DNA of 64,000 nt from contig JAKFWA010000024.1 of the NCBI GenBank assembly GCA_021732995.1, positions 62,001-126,000 on the forward strand, written 5' to 3'. Below the pieces are notes generated by a model. It made no database searches. It worked only from the letters and a program-made list of their open reading frames with translations, and had not been told where the DNA came from. Source of the DNA: Planctomycetaceae bacterium (lineage in GTDB: Bacteria > Planctomycetota > Planctomycetia > Planctomycetales > Planctomycetaceae). Positions 1,118 through 23,848 of this stretch are shown here, one piece after another. The first letter of the stretch is position 1. Each line of letters opens with the position of its first letter. The translations under genes were made by a program, and so were the position numbers.

Positions 1118-3826
1118 ATGCTGAAATTCCTGGCAGGTAGTTTTGCGGTGGCCGGACTGATTGCAGCCTCGGCACCGATCATCATCCATCTGCTCAACCG
1201 GCGACGCTTTCGAGTCGTCGAGTGGGCGGCGATGAACTTTCTGCGCCAGGCCATGCAGCGAAACCGCCGGGTTCTGCAGTTGCGGGATCTGGTCGTGCTG
1301 GTGCTGAGATGCCTGGCCGTCGCTCTGTTCGGTGCGGCACTGGCCCGTCCGTTCGTGTCGGGAGTTTCCACACTCGCCATCTTCGCGGCGGCTGTCGTCT
1401 TTCTGGCGGTGGTGACAGCGTTTACCTCGGCCGTAGCCGGGATTCTGACCTCGCAGAAGAAGGCGCGCGTGATGGCCTTCGGGACCTGCGCGGCCGCTGT
1501 AGTCGTCAGCCTGATCGGCATCGGAGCGATGCTCTCGAATCAGGACGATTCCACTGCGACAGCTCTCACCGGACGTCAGCCAGTACACGCAATCGTGCTG
1601 GTGGATAACAGCCAGAGCATGGGCTACGAAGCTCTCAATCGAACGCTGCTGGACGAAGCGAAAACCAAAGCTGGTGAATTCATCGACGCGCTGCCGTCCG
1701 ACAGCCAGATTCATGTCATCCCCTTGTGCGGTTCGGATGAGACGAGCGCGCTGAGTGCCTATCGCAGCAAGACCGACGCGCGAGCCGCCTTGGATCGTCT
1801 GGGCGTCGTGGACCGCATCGGCCGCGCATCGCACGGTCTGGATTTGGCGACTCAAGCCGCACGGCAGGTTCCGGAACTAGACACCAAACGCGTGGTCTTG
1901 ATCAGCGATCAGCAGCAGACGTTGTGGGAAGGCGGAGCGGCTAAGAATCAACTTGCGCAACTCCCCGACGTGCAACTGGTCCACATCCCGATCGAGAAAC
2001 CCGAGAACGTGTGGATCTCGAAGTTTGAGCTGCAAGACGGCGTGGCCGACGTGGAAACTCCGGCAGTGTTTCATGTGACCGTGGAACATACGGGCGAGCA
2101 ACCGCTCACCAATGTCCGTGTCGCGTTGTCGATTGATGGGGAGGAAGTCGCCAGTCGTCTGGTAGACTTGGAACCCGGCCAGGCGCGCGAAGTCGAATTC
2201 AAGCATCGCATGGAGAACCTCGCCGATACGGCCGGTCTCAGCGAAGGTGCAGGCAGTGCGGCGTTCCTCAAGGCGACAGCTACCGCGACTGCGGAAGGCA
2301 GCGTTGGTGACCGGCAACCGCGCGACAACGCTCGGCATCTGATCGCTCCGGTGGTCTCCGGTCTGCCCGTGGTCTTTGTCGACCAATACGGCCAGGAAGA
2401 AAACCTTAACCGCAATGAAGTCGGTGAGACCTATCGTTTGCGACGTCTGCTCGCGCCCCGCACGTCTACCGACGAAGAACAGAACCGCCAGCTTGTTCGC
2501 ATTCGACATCTGACCATTGATCGACTCAACGAAGAAACGCTGAGCGATGCGCGGCTGGTGGTCATTGCCGGTGTCGCCAATCCGGGCGACTCGGTGCCTT
2601 TGCTGCGTCAGTACGTGCAGCAGGGTGGTTCTGTGGTCATCGCGGCGGGAGCGGACTTCGACCCTCAAAACTGGCAGCAGGCAGGTTGGCTGGGCGGCGG
2701 TGGCATTCTGCCCGCGCCGCTGAGCTTTGAATCCGTGGGCCAATTGCCTGAGACGGCGACACAACAACTGGAGACGTTCTCGCTCGATCCGAAGTCACTG
2801 CAGCACGATTTCTTTCTGATCGAAGGAGAAACGTCGGAGTCGCTGGAAGACCTCTACCGCTCGCCCATCTTCTTCAAGGCGGCGATTGCGGATGATTCCG
2901 ACGCGATGAAAACGAATCTGGCGAACGCCGAGCGCACGCGATTGACGGAGGCTCGCGAGTTCCTGAAGGGCTCTGACGAACGCCGTCTCGCGTGGGATGA
3001 GAAGGAGCGTCAGGGAACGCTCACGGAAGCGGAACTCAACGAGCGCAAGGCGGACGATGATCGCCGTCGTGAGTACCGACCCACGTGGCTGTTGTGGGCT
3101 CACGAAGACGCCCAAACGCAACTCGACGAACGTGATATCGAACAGCTCGCGTTGGAAAGCCGACCGCGAGTAGTGGGCTACTATACCAAAGACCGTCATC
3201 CCTTCCTGGTGGAACGCAGCATCGGTGCGGGGCGCGTCTACTTCGTGTCGACGGGACTGTATTCCAGTTGGAACACGCTCACCTCAACGAATGCCATTCT
3301 GGTCTTCGATCGCATGCTCCGGCAGTTGCTGCAACAGACGCTGCCGCAACGCAATTATGAGACCGGTGACGTCGTAACGCTGCCCGCCCAGAAATCCGAC
3401 CGCGCTCGCTGGGAAGTGCAGACGCCGCTTGATCGCCGCGATCCGCTGACAATCGAAGCTCTGAGCGCCAACCGTTACGGCGTGCGCGTCCGTCGTGGAC
3501 TGTGGCAAGGCCACTACGCCGTCAACGCCATCGATACATCCAGCGACGCCAAGAACGTTACCAAGACCGTTCCGCTGGCCTTCAACTGCCCGCCCGAAGA
3601 ATCCCAACTAGCCGCGTTCGACGCACTGAGCTTCCGACAGCGCATGGGTGAGGGTACCTACCGCTGGCTGGAGCAGGACGACTCAATCAGCGTCGAAGGC
3701 GCCCAGATCCGCGGCCGTGATTTATGGAAGTGGCTCATTGGCGCCGTCTTCCTCTTCCTGCTCGCCGAAATGCTCATCCTCGCCTGGCCGTATCGAAAAC
3801 CGGAACCAACAGCGGCGACGGTGTAG
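1118..3826 (+). CDS. BatA/VWA-domain membrane protein
   Basis: This is a 902-aa protein starting at MLKFLAGSF. An in-frame ATG at 887 would run back into the divergent kinase gene, and its extra 77 residues look non-coding, so I chose 1118. Residues 1-80 match the aerotolerance-regulator N-terminal region (BatA): a membrane helix, then HLLNRRRFRVVEWAAMNFL and a second hydrophobic stretch. A von Willebrand A domain follows, with the MIDAS motif DNSQS. The middle is a long, probably periplasmic part containing a glutamine-amidotransferase-like fold region. The C-terminus ends in one membrane helix (LWKWLIGAVFLFLLAEML) and a short basic tail. Proteins of this type usually sit with MoxR ATPases and DUF58 proteins; neither is visible here. 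The function is unknown beyond being a membrane-anchored VWA scaffold. Confidence 0.85.
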   Translation: MLKFLAGSFAVAGLIAASAPIIIHLLNRRRFRVVEWAAMNFLRQAMQRNRRVLQLRDLVVLVLRCLAVALFGAALARPFVSGVSTLAIFAAAVVFLAVVTAFTSAVAGILTSQKKARVMAFGTCAAAVVVSLIGIGAMLSNQDDSTATALTGRQPVHAIVLVDNSQSMGYEALNRTLLDEAKTKAGEFIDALPSDSQIHVIPLCGSDETSALSAYRSKTDARAALDRLGVVDRIGRASHGLDLATQAARQVPELDTKRVVLISDQQQTLWEGGAAKNQLAQLPDVQLVHIPIEKPENVWISKFELQDGVADVETPAVFHVTVEHTGEQPLTNVRVALSIDGEEVASRLVDLEPGQAREVEFKHRMENLADTAGLSEGAGSAAFLKATATATAEGSVGDRQPRDNARHLIAPVVSGLPVVFVDQYGQEENLNRNEVGETYRLRRLLAPRTSTDEEQNRQLVRIRHLTIDRLNEETLSDARLVVIAGVANPGDSVPLLRQYVQQGGSVVIAAGADFDPQNWQQAGWLGGGGILPAPLSFESVGQLPETATQQLETFSLDPKSLQHDFFLIEGETSESLEDLYRSPIFFKAAIADDSDAMKTNLANAERTRLTEAREFLKGSDERRLAWDEKERQGTLTEAELNERKADDDRRREYRPTWLLWAHEDAQTQLDERDIEQLALESRPRVVGYYTKDRHPFLVERSIGAGRVYFVSTGLYSSWNTLTSTNAILVFDRMLRQLLQQTLPQRNYETGDVVTLPAQKSDRARWEVQTPLDRRDPLTIEALSANRYGVRVRRGLWQGHYAVNAIDTSSDAKNVTKTVPLAFNCPPEESQLAAFDALSFRQRMGEGTYRWLEQDDSISVEGAQIRGRDLWKWLIGAVFLFLLAEMLILAWPYRKPEPTAATV

Positions 3827-18527: not shown

Positions 18528-20804
18528 TTACTTCTTCTCGGGCGGGTTTACGCGGATCGCAATCGGTTCGGAAACGACGATATCCACAATATCGGTCGGA
18601 GCAGCCGTTGCCGTTGCCTTTTTGACTTGTGCCGCCGCATTGGTCACAGCAGCGGCGGCAACTTTCTGTTTGGCAGTCGCGGCTTCGACGGCCTTGTCCG
18701 CTTCGGCTTTGGTCTCAGCAGTTGCGGCCGCGGCAGCTTCCATCAACTTCTTCAGCTCAGCGTCAGCGGCGGTGAGTTCTTCCTGAGCTTTCTTGTGAGC
18801 CTCTTCCGCGACGGGAATGGCATCGGGCCGGTGTCGATACTTGGCAACCGCGCCGCCGTAGAACGCAATCAGGTAGTCGCCAGGCGCGACCTTCAACGCG
18901 GCGGTATCCAGGACCGCTTGAGACTGATCGGCGTTGATCTGCACATCAAACTGCGGAGCACGATCGAAGCCAGCCCCCATCGTCTTGAGTTGCAGGACCG
19001 CACCGGAGAACTCACTGCGACGGGTGTGATTGAGCGGAACGGTCAGCTTCTCACCGGCTGTCACGGTCAACACATCCTTGTTGGGCGTGCTCAACGACAG
19101 CGGAGTGAATTCCAAACCGCTGACCGAAACAGGGATGTCGGCGAATAACCGTGGGCTGGGAATCTCGCCCCAGGAATCCGGAATCGGCCAGGCATGCGAC
19201 GCCAGTCGACCGGTCCGAGTCACAACTTCATCGTTGATCTTGGCTCGACCAATGAAGTTGGCACTGCCGATGACTCGCGGTGCGTTTTGGTGCGCGGTGA
19301 CCAGCATCAGGCCGCGCGACTGACCAGCCGGAATCTTCAGGCCACTGGCAGTCACGCCTTCCGGCAGACCTTCCAGCGCCAGTTCGATGTCGCCATCAAA
19401 GCCATCCCGTCGGATCGCGACGACTTCCAGAGCCATCGTGGCGCCACCACGCAAAGCCAGCGGCTTCGAGACCGCATTCCGGTCCCCATTGCGCAATTCC
19501 ATGTGCAGCGCCCAGGCGACGACTGCAAAGTCGGGAGCCGCCTTGCGAATCACCAACCGATAAATGTTCTTCGGATCGTTGCGCGTGCCGCCAAACAAGT
19601 CCGAGAGCTGCAGGCGATGCAGGCCGTCTTCCTTGATCTCTACCTTGCCGAGGATGTCTGCGCTGCCCGCGTTGTACGGAGGACCGTCATAAGCATAACC
19701 GTTGCTCGACACCTTCACGGGACTGGGAATGTCACTGAGTTCCGCGATGTCCGTCAGCTTTTCTGTATCGCCCGTGCGAGCCACATGCTGCACGAGGATC
19801 GACGGATCGGTCGGCAAACCGAATCGCTCCGAACCAACCTCAACCCACCAGACCTCGCCCTTCTTGGCTTCAAACTCAAAGACATCGACATCAGCCGCCG
19901 GGTAGAAGCTGCCCGCGATGTCGCACGGCAGAGTAATCTTCTGAGCCTTCGTGCGATCGTTGTTCGGTTCGGCCTCGGCGACTTCCGCCTGCTCCTTCAA
20001 ACCTTGCGGCGGCCAGGAGAACGAATTCACCGGCTTGGTCGATGGCATGCGCACGATCGGTGCTCCGGGCGTCAGTTCCGACACGCCCAGCCGGTAGTAG
20101 TAGGCAGGTCCGCCTTTGAAGGTGAGTTCATGCACCTTGATCACATACTTGCCGTCGGCAGGCACGTTGAAATCCAGAACTCCGCCGCGACGTTCGACAA
20201 GCAGATCGCGTCCGGCGGCGTCGGCGACGATCACCACCGCATCGAGCTTCGAGTCAATGCCGCGCGTCGCGCAGTCCACGATGATGCGTTGCCCCTTGCG
20301 GGCTTCGAAGCTGTAGAAGTCGACGGCACGCTGCGTCATCGTCGCGTTGCAGATCGAGTTGACTGGCAACTCCAACGCCGTCGACAGCGTCGTATTGGGC
20401 TTCGTCTGAGACACCTCGTTGAGTGTGCCCACACAGAACGCTCGCGACGACGAAATCCCCAATCGCGTCATCACGCGCGATTCATAGATCCCGGGTGGGC
20501 AATCACCAGCAATCGAGACCACGTACTTGTTCGGTTCCGGTTGACCGGCAGCGTTCAGCTTGCGAGTCGCCTTGATGCGCGGATCAGAAAACGTGAGCGC
20601 ATCGGCGTCTTCGATGTGTTCGCCGCTGATCGTCACATCGACCTCAGACCCGACTTTGGCGCCCATTGGTTGGGTGGTTAATAGCCTTGGGGCAGGCAGA
20701 CCGACCGACTGGGCGAAGACCGGGGCTGTTAGAAGTAGCGCGCTGCAGGTTGCGCCAAAGGACAGAAAGGACCTCAGGGACCAAAGGTAGTTGGCACCGA
20801 TCAT
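18528..20804 (-). CDS. Secreted protein with bacterial pre-peptidase C-terminal (PPC) domains
   Basis: This is a 758-aa exported protein. The signal peptide ends near LLLTAPVFAQS. An Ig-like domain follows (LLTTQPMGAKVGSEVDVTISG). Two PPC-type beta-sandwich domains come next: VDFYSFEARKGQRIIVDC and VDVFEFEAKKGEVWWVEV. Residues 650-740 are Ala/Lys/Glu-rich and probably coiled-coil. The start overlaps the four-helix gene by 4 bp. The signal-peptide code contains one copy of the 22-bp direct repeat (20765-20786), which suggests the original 5' end was altered when the four-helix gene arrived. It lies between DUF1549 and DUF1501 genes, a standard planctomycete trio. Confidence 0.82.
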   Translation of the reverse strand: MIGANYLWSLRSFLSFGATCSALLLTAPVFAQSVGLPAPRLLTTQPMGAKVGSEVDVTISGEHIEDADALTFSDPRIKATRKLNAAGQPEPNKYVVSIAGDCPPGIYESRVMTRLGISSSRAFCVGTLNEVSQTKPNTTLSTALELPVNSICNATMTQRAVDFYSFEARKGQRIIVDCATRGIDSKLDAVVIVADAAGRDLLVERRGGVLDFNVPADGKYVIKVHELTFKGGPAYYYRLGVSELTPGAPIVRMPSTKPVNSFSWPPQGLKEQAEVAEAEPNNDRTKAQKITLPCDIAGSFYPAADVDVFEFEAKKGEVWWVEVGSERFGLPTDPSILVQHVARTGDTEKLTDIAELSDIPSPVKVSSNGYAYDGPPYNAGSADILGKVEIKEDGLHRLQLSDLFGGTRNDPKNIYRLVIRKAAPDFAVVAWALHMELRNGDRNAVSKPLALRGGATMALEVVAIRRDGFDGDIELALEGLPEGVTASGLKIPAGQSRGLMLVTAHQNAPRVIGSANFIGRAKINDEVVTRTGRLASHAWPIPDSWGEIPSPRLFADIPVSVSGLEFTPLSLSTPNKDVLTVTAGEKLTVPLNHTRRSEFSGAVLQLKTMGAGFDRAPQFDVQINADQSQAVLDTAALKVAPGDYLIAFYGGAVAKYRHRPDAIPVAEEAHKKAQEELTAADAELKKLMEAAAAATAETKAEADKAVEAATAKQKVAAAAVTNAAAQVKKATATAAPTDIVDIVVSEPIAIRVNPPEKK
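20765..20786. repeat. 22-bp direct repeat, right-hand copy (inside PPC gene)
   Basis: These 22 bases are identical to 21378-21399 (minus-strand core CTTTGGTCCCTGAGGTCC). Here they encode part of the PPC protein's signal peptide (WSLRSF). The other copy carries the start of the four-helix gene in a different reading frame. The two copies bracket the four-helix gene. Confidence 0.85.
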
Positions 20805-21397
20805 TGGCTTCTCCGTTGATGATTCCGTGAAGCGACCCGTGCACGGGTCATGGCTTCGCGGAGACCGCCTTCTTTGAGGAAGGTTTGTTCCAAAGTTTTT
20901 AGTTGCTGATCCAGCAGATAATTCGTGAGTTTGATCAACCCGATGATGACGTTCGCACAGATCGCGAGGTCATCGTGTTCAATTCCTTTGCGGAAGGTTT
21001 CGTAGTTGGCTCCCGGTGTGCGATTCAGTTCTCTCAGTCGCTGCGTGTAAGGATGCTGACGATCCCATTCTTCCAATCGGCGAGTTCTCAGGAAGTCGCG
21101 ATAGTCTTCGAGTAGCTCTTCCAGACTAGCTCGCGCGATGTTGGTGAGTTTGATTTCCATTTCTCTGGACGTTCCGGAAGCCTGACTACCTTCGACGATA
21201 TTCTGTTTGCCGGAGCAGGCGGCTTGAATCATTTGGTCATAAGTGCGATCTCGTTTGTCGAGGAAGCGGCTGCAAAAGTAGACGGTCGCGTCATAGACGA
21301 TCTGTGATTTCTGGTAGGACAGCAGGTTTTGATAGCCGCCGTGCGGTGGAATAAAGCCCGGCTGAGTTGAAGGGTCGGAAAGGACCTCAGGGACCAA
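20801..21397 (-). CDS. Four-helix-bundle protein with suffix domain (23S rRNA IVS-type family)
   Basis: This 198-aa protein starts with TTG; upstream in-frame codons reach a stop with no ATG. It begins with FIPPHGGYQNLLSYQKSQIVYDATVYFC and has the helix segment DQMIQAACSGKQNIVEGSQ and SLEELLEDYRDFLR. These are typical of the four-helix-bundle family related to proteins encoded in 23S rRNA intervening sequences. It ends with a suffix EGGLREAMTRARVASR. The function is not established; related proteins are structural or RNA-associated. The gene is flanked by 22-bp direct repeats and sits inside a DUF1549-PPC-DUF1501 operon to which it does not belong functionally, which suggests a mobile insertion. 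Confidence 0.85.
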   Translation of the reverse strand: MVPEVLSDPSTQPGFIPPHGGYQNLLSYQKSQIVYDATVYFCSRFLDKRDRTYDQMIQAACSGKQNIVEGSQASGTSREMEIKLTNIARASLEELLEDYRDFLRTRRLEEWDRQHPYTQRLRELNRTPGANYETFRKGIEHDDLAICANVIIGLIKLTNYLLDQQLKTLEQTFLKEGGLREAMTRARVASRNHQRRSQ

Positions 21398-21399
21398 AG
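21378..21399. repeat. 22-bp direct repeat, left-hand copy (start of four-helix gene)
   Basis: This copy is identical over 22 bases to 20765-20786. It contains the TTG start and the first codons of the four-helix gene. It is immediately preceded, in minus-strand sense, by a degenerate purine repeat (21421-21450). Confidence 0.85.
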
Positions 21400-21420
21400 A
21401 ACTTTTGCGGCGTTCTTCTT

Positions 21421-21450
21421 TCCTTTATGTCCTTTTCGTCCCTTCTATCC
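21421..21450. repeat. Degenerate 10-mer repeat upstream of the four-helix gene
   Basis: Three imperfect 10-base units are seen on the plus strand: TCCTTTATGT, CCTTTTCGTC, CCTTCTATCC. They sit between the DUF1549 stop and the four-helix start and provide purine-rich sequence on the transcribed strand. They may be part of the inserted cassette. Confidence 0.5.
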
Positions 21451-21463
21451 GACATGACAGCCT

Positions 21464-23677
21464 CTAATGATTGAACAAAAACTCTTTCGTATTAATCAAC
21501 GCCCAGATCAGGTCCTGATAATTTGCATTGGCGGCGGTTCCGGGTTCGTTCAGATATTCAATCGCTGTCTTTAATTCTTGCGGCCGAGGCTCTCGTGAGA
21601 ACGCCGCCAGGTACAACTCTCGCACCTTGGCTTCAGCGGGTTTGTCTTCTTTGGAAAGGCGTTCGGCGCGGCCGGTTGCTGCGGCGAGCTTGGCTTTCAT
21701 TTCAGGAGCGTTCAGCAAGTGCAGGCTTTGAGCGAGGCTTGAAGACTGCACGCGTTCGCACTCGCAAACGCTCTCACCTTGAGGTCGTCCGAAGACTCGC
21801 AGGAACTGCGACGATGCGTTGTAGCTGTTGTCTGGTAACCCAACGGCTCGAGTGCCGGGTGGCAGGTTGGCGAAGTCCGTCTGAGTTCCTGCCAGTCGAT
21901 CGATTGCGTCGAGTAACACCTCCGCCTGCAGGCGCCGCGGGTAGTAACGCGAGTAATTCTGCTGGTCGACGATGTTATGTTCGTTCGGGACCTCGCTGAG
22001 TTGATACGCGCGAGACTGCGTCATCACGCGCACCAGTTCTTTGAGATCAAAGTTACTGGCGATGAAGTGCTTTTCCAGAGCGTCTAGCAACGCGGGATTC
22101 GTCGGAGGGTTCGTGTCGCGAATGTCGTCTTCCGGTTCGATCAGACCTCGCACGAAGAAGTGCTTCCAGTAGCGGTTCACCAATGACTTCGCGAAGAACG
22201 GGTTGTTCTTCTGACTCATCCAGTCGGCGAGTTTCAAACGCGGATCTTCGTCAGCGGCAATGGCGGGGATCGCATCACCCAGCGCTGCCGGCTTGAGCGG
22301 CACGCCGGTCTTCATGTTGGCGGCGGTCGCAATTCCGCGTTTGTGGAAGATCAGGTCTTCACCGCGCGTGCTTGACGGCTTGCGCCCGACCTGACTGAAG
22401 AAAGCGACCAGCGAGTAGTAATCATCCTGGCTCCAGCGTTCGAACGGATGATGATGGCATTGAGCACATTGCATCCGCACGCCGAGGAACAATTGGGCAA
22501 CGTCTTCAATCTGCTGCTTGGGTTCTTTGACTCGCTTGTACCACGCAACCGGCGGATTACCGATCACAGTGCCCGTGGCTGCCAGCACTTCGCGCACAAA
22601 CTGGTCGTAAGGCTTGTTGGCGAGGAAACTGTCGCGCACCCACGCATGAAAAGCGAAGTTCGAAACTGTGTCGCTGGCATCGTCACGACGATTCTTCAGC
22701 AACGCGGTCCACTTGTTGGCGAAGAAGTCCGCGTAGTCAGGACTGCGGAGCATCTCGTCGATGAACTTGTCGCGCTTGTCAGCATCCGTGCTGGCCAGAA
22801 ACGCGGCAGCTTCCTCTTCAGTCGGCAGGCGGCCGCCGATGTCCAGCGCGACGCGACGCAGGAACGTCGCGTCATCGCAAACTGCAGACGGCGGAATGCC
22901 CAGCGACCGCAGATTTGCGAACACGTGCTCGTCAACAAAGTTCTTCGGCGAGGGAATGTTCTCAACCGGAGCACCCAACGGCACTGACGCGCTGTAAACC
23001 GCGACTTGGCCTTGATACCTCACCATCACGGCTACGTTGCCGGAGATATCCGAAATCTTCACGAGGCCGCGATCGCTGACATCGGCCATCGCCCTGTCGT
23101 TGGCTTCGTACAGTGCCATGGTAGTGACATCGCGGACGCTGCCATCGGCGTACTTCGCAATCGCCCTGAGTTGCTGCTCGGCGCCGCGCTTGATGGAACC
23201 CTTACCGGGTTGAATCTCGATGGACACCAGATTCGGCGCGGTCTTCAGGTCATTCGGAGCGCCTTGCCGAATCCATTCGCGCAGCAGGGCGTAACCTTCG
23301 GAAGTGGCAGCCAGGCGAATGCCGCCGCCGTGAGGTACCTGCCCCGACGCTTTCATGAGCAATAAGCTACGTTCCGGAACACCCGCAAACAGGCGGCGGC
23401 TGCGGCCCTCTTTGACAAGGTGTTCCAAGTCTTCCTGTGGCTCGAACCCCAGCAGCGACAACTGGAACCCATTCTGCCCGTTGCCCGCCTTCGCGTGGCA
23501 GACCCCGACGTTGCACCCCGCCTTCGTCAGCACCGGCATCACGTCATTGACGAAGCTCACGGGTTGTTCGGCGGTCTTCGCATTGAGCGGCACGCCGAAA
23601 AGACAGCACAAAGCAGCCAGCAAGCCGATGCACTTCGCCCACGGCGGACAAAGTGATCCAGTATTTCGAGTTGGCAT
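21464..23677 (-). CDS. DUF1549/DUF1553 protein with Ig-like domain and haem-type CxxCH motif
   Basis: This protein has 737 aa from an ATG at 23677; GGAAAC lies about 8 nt before it. A GTG at 23707 would add 10 residues. It has a signal peptide ending near PLNAKTAEQ, then a planctomycete-type N-terminal motif CNVGVCHAKAGNGQNGF. A BIG2/Ig-like domain (GKGSIKRGAEQQLRAIAKYADGSVRDVT) follows, then DUF1549. The CAQCHHHPFERWSQDDYY segment has a CxxCH haem-type motif, and a C-terminal DUF1553 domain ends LINTKEFLFNH. It is the first gene of the operon ending in DUF1501 at 16965. Such proteins are exported. Their biochemical role is unsettled. Confidence 0.87.
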   Translation of the reverse strand: MPTRNTGSLCPPWAKCIGLLAALCCLFGVPLNAKTAEQPVSFVNDVMPVLTKAGCNVGVCHAKAGNGQNGFQLSLLGFEPQEDLEHLVKEGRSRRLFAGVPERSLLLMKASGQVPHGGGIRLAATSEGYALLREWIRQGAPNDLKTAPNLVSIEIQPGKGSIKRGAEQQLRAIAKYADGSVRDVTTMALYEANDRAMADVSDRGLVKISDISGNVAVMVRYQGQVAVYSASVPLGAPVENIPSPKNFVDEHVFANLRSLGIPPSAVCDDATFLRRVALDIGGRLPTEEEAAAFLASTDADKRDKFIDEMLRSPDYADFFANKWTALLKNRRDDASDTVSNFAFHAWVRDSFLANKPYDQFVREVLAATGTVIGNPPVAWYKRVKEPKQQIEDVAQLFLGVRMQCAQCHHHPFERWSQDDYYSLVAFFSQVGRKPSSTRGEDLIFHKRGIATAANMKTGVPLKPAALGDAIPAIAADEDPRLKLADWMSQKNNPFFAKSLVNRYWKHFFVRGLIEPEDDIRDTNPPTNPALLDALEKHFIASNFDLKELVRVMTQSRAYQLSEVPNEHNIVDQQNYSRYYPRRLQAEVLLDAIDRLAGTQTDFANLPPGTRAVGLPDNSYNASSQFLRVFGRPQGESVCECERVQSSSLAQSLHLLNAPEMKAKLAAATGRAERLSKEDKPAEAKVRELYLAAFSREPRPQELKTAIEYLNEPGTAANANYQDLIWALINTKEFLFNH

Positions 23678-23848
23678 ATCGTTTCCACGCAAGTCCGGTA
23701 TCGCCACGCAGAGCCACGCACGGCCTGCAGGGGCGCAAATCGCCTAAATATATCAGACGACGCTAATGCGTTCGGCGAATCGTCGTCAATAAGCGGGCGG
23801 GCTCGCGGGAAGCAGATCGGGAAATGCCACAGTCGACGGTTGATCGGG

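Follow-up and report, generated by a model that had tools for sequence, protein, structure and literature searches.

How did a small four-helix-bundle gene come to lie between the DUF1549/DUF1553 and PPC genes of a planctomycete operon, and what are the identical 22-bp sequences that stand on both of its sides? The locus belongs to a stretch of 64,000 nucleotides, which is called the window here. The original prediction was that a small element related to the 23S rRNA intervening sequences had inserted into the operon and that the 22-bp repeats represented its target-site duplication. The placement of the gene between these two neighbours is confirmed by our analysis, and the window probably contains an S23-type mobile element of about 690 bp, consisting of the gene and inverted 9-bp arrays and located in the first codons of the PPC gene (Table 1).

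Table 1. Positions in the window of the element, its parts and the neighbouring genes
Feature	Positions	Strand	Basis or remark
DUF1549/DUF1553 gene, upstream in operon	21464..23707	-	profile search
Probable remnant of the original PPC start, ATGTCGGATAGA, MSDR	21444..21455	-	inferred from alignment
Inserted element, ~690 bp	20757..21444	-	absent from 11/11 relatives
R1 arm, three purine nonamers AAGGGACGA AAAGGACAT AAAGGAAAG	21418..21444	-	sequence; predicted pairing with Y1
Loop region between R1 and Y1, 18 nt, AAGAACGCCGCAAAAGTT	21400..21417	-	sequence
Y1 arm (repeat copy 2)	21370..21399	-	also codes N-terminus of four-helix ORF
Four-helix-bundle suffix-domain gene, 198 aa	20801..21397	-	TIGR04258, TIGR02436; AlphaFold2 model and fold match
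Y2 arm (repeat copy 1)	20757..20786	-	codes part of PPC signal peptide now
PPC-domain gene, insertion host	18528..20804	-	ATG overlaps four-helix stop codon (CAATGATC); first codons are element sequence

The gene product is a member of the S23 protein family by profile searches and fold match, which upholds the predicted kinship with 23S rRNA intervening sequences. It passes the profiles TIGR04258 (four helix bundle suffix domain; 70.6 bits, cut-off 40) and TIGR02436 (S23 / four helix bundle protein; 31.0 bits, cut-off 24), and its score against PF05635 (23S rRNA-intervening sequence protein; 26.2 bits) lies below the Pfam gathering cut-off of 33.8. The AlphaFold2 model of the protein is all-helical and confident (mean pLDDT 88), and in a Foldseek comparison with the PDB it came closest to the Xanthomonas campestris protein XCC0516 (2gsc; probability 1.00; TM-score by target length, 0.75), with a weak E-value of 0.016, as is expected for such folds because they are helix bundles; the next match, 2rld, is another S23 protein. 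A search of PDB sequences with the suffix-family profile gave no match, the window protein has no match among the PHROGs, and the Pfam and NCBIfam profiles detected only IVP/four-helix domains in the gene, with no sign of a domain for a nuclease, a transposase or a polymerase. Proteins of the S23 family are common; the structure of their pentameric fold was reportedly solved in 2006, and we know of no function for them.

Comparison with related genomes supports the predicted insertion into a protein operon. Both the four-helix gene and the 9-bp arrays are absent from 11 of 11 relatives with an orthologous DUF1549/1553–PPC junction, in which PPC directly follows DUF1549/1553 with 62-192 bp between the two match ends (n=11), so that none of these relatives has the gene at this place. 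In the window, the codons ATG TCG GAT AGA directly precede the R1 arm and resemble the PPC start of one relative (MNDRS, G004/L013), and the native PPC signal peptide picks up again near GATCSALLLTAPVFA. Taken together, these two observations place the landing site in the beginning of the PPC gene, where the element appears to have split the signal-peptide region within the first codons. The sole usable PPC start is now an ATG overlapping the stop codon of the four-helix gene, and the signal-peptide n-region (LWSLRSFLSF) therefore consists of element sequence. Furthermore, this overlap of stop and start suggests that the two genes may be translationally coupled.

The direct repeats were found exactly where they had been reported, as the 22-bp copies are identical at 20765-20786 and 21378-21399, and the similarity extends to 30 bp at 90% identity over the full Y2 and Y1 arms. 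No other 22-mer recurs within 1 kb across the whole window, the random expectation per kb being about 3e-8. As predicted, both copies are also coding sequence, one for the N-terminal end of the four-helix ORF, the TTG start of which lies inside the array, and the other for the residues WSLRSFLSF in the PPC signal peptide. Read in the direction of the gene, Y1 (the upstream copy) is CTTTGGTCCCTGAGGTCCTTTCCGACCCTT and Y2 (the downstream copy) is CTTTGGTCCCTGAGGTCCTTTCTGTCCTTT. Both are composed of degenerate 9-bp repeats, in which a GTCCYTT-like heptamer is combined with two free bases, and the three nonamers of Y2 are GTCCCTGAG, GTCCTTTCT and GTCCTTTGG, with the final two bases just beyond the arm coordinates. 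Y1 and Y2 can thus be described as same-orientation arms of degenerate 9-bp arrays with the core AARGGAC/GTCCYTT plus 2 nt. A degenerate 10-mer repeat that had been noticed just upstream does exist and corresponds to R1; its period is 9, and it is the hairpin arm complementary to the upstream copy. The predicted R1-loop-Y1 hairpin has a fold z-score of -3.15 against shuffles (21360-21450), and R1 could alternatively pair with Y2 around the gene. The window copy hence comprises an upstream hairpin and a single downstream arm, since Y2 has no R partner downstream in this copy, in which no 5-bp duplication is visible either. The loop motif GAACGCC..GCAAAAGTTC was also considered as a genome-wide element end and was rejected, as it gave only chance-level matches in its own genome with a pattern so strict that it missed even the window and L003.

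The arrays are not peculiar to this locus. A blind period scan, which assumed no motif, revealed the period of 9 and detected arrays of period 9 to 11 at 17 of 36 related loci, at 1 of 29 control loci and in 0 of 36 shuffles. Around 80 named homologous loci from many phyla, array density per 10 kb falls from 22.9 in the first 150 bp next to the gene to 3.0 at 150-300 bp and to 0.3-0.7 farther out, with period-9 arrays being about 60 times denser within 150 bp than at more than 600 bp, and at a matched threshold (score 12) an array is present in 46 of the 80 gene neighbourhoods versus 6 of 133 control stretches. Arrays bracket this gene family specifically across phyla, and the search of other suffix-gene loci for flanking repeats, which had been proposed along with the insertion, finds the 9-bp arrays on both sides of homologues at unrelated sites. 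When two arrays lie on one side of a gene, their order is nearly always R then Y, which corresponds to a hairpin, and two loci (L131, L133) have a hairpin on both gene sides. Depending on the threshold, arrays are lacking around about a quarter to nearly half of the suffix loci, among them those of a well conserved group in Planctomycetota (L046, L049-L052), and in some genomes (G001, G336) arrays are present and a suffix gene was not detected. The recurrence of the same gene type with the same array type over many phyla points to a widespread and apparently undescribed mobile element.

The period of the arrays differs between the protein subfamilies. Near suffix genes, period 9 alone is enriched (77 arrays, 8.45 vs 0.38 per 10 kb) and the other periods are close to zero, while near suffix-less TIGR02436 genes, whose products lack this C-terminal domain, it is period 7 alone (31 arrays, 11.25 vs 0.37 per 10 kb). 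Suffix-less genes on plasmids of Nostoc, Calothrix, Anabaena, Azospirillum and others have period-7 arrays on both sides, the suffix-less gene of a Gemmatirosa plasmid has arrays of period 8, and complementary arrays occupy opposite gene sides at 26 of 45 suffix-less loci. In addition, the core of the array follows the protein clade. When loci were labelled by array core (AA/CA-RGAC or AT-RGAC, the labels of loci beyond the 80 named ones being assigned by eye) and mapped on the protein tree, 2 changes per label were found versus 11-12 after shuffling, and 0 of 500 shuffles were as low. The AA/CA clade, which has 99% support and spans several phyla, includes the window gene, and L001, a second suffix gene in the same genome, groups with the AT loci and is likewise accompanied by arrays of the AT type. 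As the two genes of one genome belong to different clades, each with its own core, the arrays are inherited with the gene and are not set by the host. The natural reading of these sequence comparisons would be that the protein recognises its array, although the shared inheritance could also reflect merely that they travel together.

The strongest evidence that gene and arrays move as a unit comes from plasmid pairs of the suffix-less subfamily, which has period 7 and not period 9. Conjugative plasmids of Trichormus and Scytonema contain a period-7 S23 gene that is absent from near-identical plasmids (flanks ~98%), and the filled and empty junctions differ by a 414- or 428-bp insert and a 5-bp GTAAT duplication outside the arrays, the 14 bp between the two insert lengths being equal to two heptamers. 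At a second site, in Nostoc plasmids, the net insertion is about 414 bp with no clean duplication, and the L229/L250 and L237 pairs also exhibit an insertion without a clean duplication. These pairs suggest that the arrays would be part of the mobile unit itself. A shortened remnant of an element, with the left array and part of the gene, was observed at a filled/empty plasmid site in Nostoc sp. C052 (L245:945-1080).

Similar hairpins that have no gene are also dispersed through some of the same genomes. A scan of eight genomes with a strict three-unit nonamer pattern yielded 22 matches in the genome of the window and 51, 26, 15, 9 and 7 in five others (total 130), with 0 matches in the remaining two, and the reversed pattern, used as a control, matched once over all eight. 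In 392 genomes of the phylum, at least five pattern matches co-occur with a suffix gene (6/9 vs 24/383 genomes, P 9e-6; P 8e-5 without the window's own genome), and two of the three exceptions resemble exact tandem repeats. Two AA-type nonamer hairpins lie in frame within one protein kinase gene (L107:2050-2130 and 3085-3160, contig C66 of G000), and alignable kinase homologues are devoid of the G-P-x nonamer insert; the kinase linker varies freely, and the homologues therefore offer no exact empty site. One of the two kinase-gene hairpins codes for G-P-x peptides (GPFGPLSPLDEKGPKGPNGP). Most of the AT-type hairpins of G000 are found on contig C63, in an apparent prophage. About a dozen of them, mostly intergenic, were seen in L105 and L106 (C63, 22.9-51.4 kb) with the structure [ATGGGACNN]3-CCGATG-loop-CATCGG-[GTCCCANNN]3, and the same apparent prophage has a GpA-type terminase gene (L105 2523-4637). 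As a separate observation, one 8.9-Mb Planctomycetota genome with two suffix genes (G238) has 181 strict nonamer matches.

These results bear on the alternatives to a mobile S23 element. One of them holds that the arrays are only RNA stems, which isolate or process the S23 message within the host operon in the way in which RNase III acts on 23S intervening sequences, and that they spread by ordinary recombination. It would agree with the inverted arms around the gene at many loci, with hairpins that fold well, with membership of the S23 family, and with insertions that are frequently located between operon genes, but it fails on the gene-less hairpins, which are intergenic as well as in frame inside genes, and on the precise insertion with a short duplication; copies in antisense orientation to their operon also occur (L229), and we consider this alternative unlikely. 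Still less probable is the insertion of a bare four-helix cassette into a pre-existing 22-bp sequence, with duplication of that target site. An exact 22-bp match does flank the gene on both sides, this common sequence exceeds in length those of 99.9% of arm pairs from different loci and of 99.2% of pairs within the same genome, and a hairpin may have been at the site first, its Y arm being duplicated on the arrival of the gene. Nevertheless, the empty site with one repeat copy that had been anticipated was not found, since the sites of the 11 relatives are empty and contain no repeat copy. In addition, both copies are arms with the array structure of the family, long same-orientation arm matches across the gene recur elsewhere (25 bp at L133, 21 bp at L128), and the one duplication measured in a period-7 relative is 5 bp long and outside the arrays, so that the 22-bp target-site duplication of the original prediction is probably wrong. 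Finally, that the arrays arose by simple slippage, or serve a resident, non-mobile gene as sites for autoregulatory binding, is very improbable, because even though unit number changes by multiples of the period (14 bp between L233 and L234) and arrays would suit a repeated binding site, the complementary inverted arms and the dispersal through genomes speak against it, and the empty sites in relatives and plasmids largely refute it.

The best reading is that S23 elements are akin to rRNA intervening sequences but free-standing, and we infer their mode of movement as follows. The inverted arms of 9-bp arrays (AARGGAC + 2 nt) would fold into hairpins at the element ends, and the direct repeats of the window would be the two Y arms, of which one belongs to the upstream hairpin and the other stayed behind at the downstream end. 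The oligomeric S23 protein may bind the hairpins of the arrays in the form of single-stranded DNA or of RNA and may recruit a strand-transfer enzyme, either a transposase or a reverse transcriptase, which is probably supplied in trans because the S23-type protein has no catalytic domain. The topoisomerase C4 zinc ribbon binds single-stranded DNA, and such a domain (PF01396) is over the cut-off in the proteins of L069 and L070. The PHROG profile of Avd, the reverse transcriptase partner in diversity-generating retroelements, matches the suffix-less S23 protein of L205, so that the candidates for this enzyme may include a reverse transcriptase. At the transcript level, pairing of the arms may produce a stem that undergoes cleavage, as happens in 23S intervening sequences. 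The host PPC gene may have been rescued because the element end provides the signal-peptide n-region along with a coupled start codon, and an operon gene could in this way stay readable after an element has landed in it.

Several known systems resemble the proposed element. The intervening sequence in the 23S rRNA of Coxiella burnetii, which contains an S23p ORF, is 428 nt long, and its stem has been described only as a 28-bp terminal repeat (PMC4990558). Intervening sequences share with the elements an S23-family four-helix protein, complementary ends with a potential to form a stem, and sporadic presence, and the Coxiella sequence is also similar in size to the 414/428-bp elements of cyanobacterial plasmids. 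Unlike them, the elements described here reside in protein operons and have degenerate short-period arrays as arms, and further hairpins that lack a gene are dispersed over the genome; the window element, between DUF1549/1553 and PPC, lies outside a 23S rRNA gene and has no Rfam match in 20300-22000. Avd of diversity-generating retroelements is of the same protein superfamily (via L205). REP/RAYT systems also combine small dispersed palindromic repeats with a presumed mover's gene that is flanked by the same repeats, whereas the S23 protein is a bundle of helices in which Pfam detects no HUH/Y1 nuclease domain, and its repeats are short-period arrays. Descriptions of dispersed heptamer repeats go back years and, to our knowledge, name no cause. 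Two papers describe the heptameric repeats GGGGATT and GGGAATC in cyanobacteria and Xanthomonas (PMC4692102) and TAACTGA repeats in Beggiatoaceae (PMC4679880), which are likewise dispersed short-period arrays and sometimes inverted. The heptamer period equals that around the cyanobacterial S23 genes studied here, and the solved S23 homologue XCC0516 originates from Xanthomonas campestris. Term searches of PMC4692102 and PMC4679880 retrieved no link to S23 genes, and none of the open-access papers searched joins intervening sequences and heptamer repeats; the link between heptamer repeats and S23 genes is a proposal of this analysis.

More generally, it is tentatively proposed, as a serious possibility, that the short-period palindromic repeats of bacteria are moved by S23-type four-helix-bundle proteins, either directly or as partners of the actual movers, with period 9 when the suffix domain is present and period 7 when it is not. 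If true, a single class of tiny mobile elements would explain the heptamers of cyanobacteria and Xanthomonas and the nonamer hairpins of Planctomycetota genomes and prophages, and would unite them with rRNA intervening sequences. The subfamily-specific period and core, together with the empty sites, give the S23 proteins a testable job and the repeats a testable mover.

A few individual loci deserve mention. Two suffix-less S23 genes of G000 (L003 and L004, contigs C37 and C38) share a purine/pyrimidine hairpin (GAGTTGAGCGGAGAAAGTAG...) and have similar outer ends (GATTTTTGGCC..., AAAAGTTC), and they look like copies of one element. In L066, the linker of the suffix gene is expanded by period-9 arrays into long Ser-rich short-peptide repeats (MQSIPSTQSIQSIEST...), and arrays also surround this gene. 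S23 elements of period 7 or similar were also seen inside CRISPR operons (L231, L238, L232), namely between cas6 and cas4 in the type I-D operons of Anabaena sp. 90 and Pseudanabaena galeata, and between cas10/cmr2 and cmr3 in Picosynechococcus.
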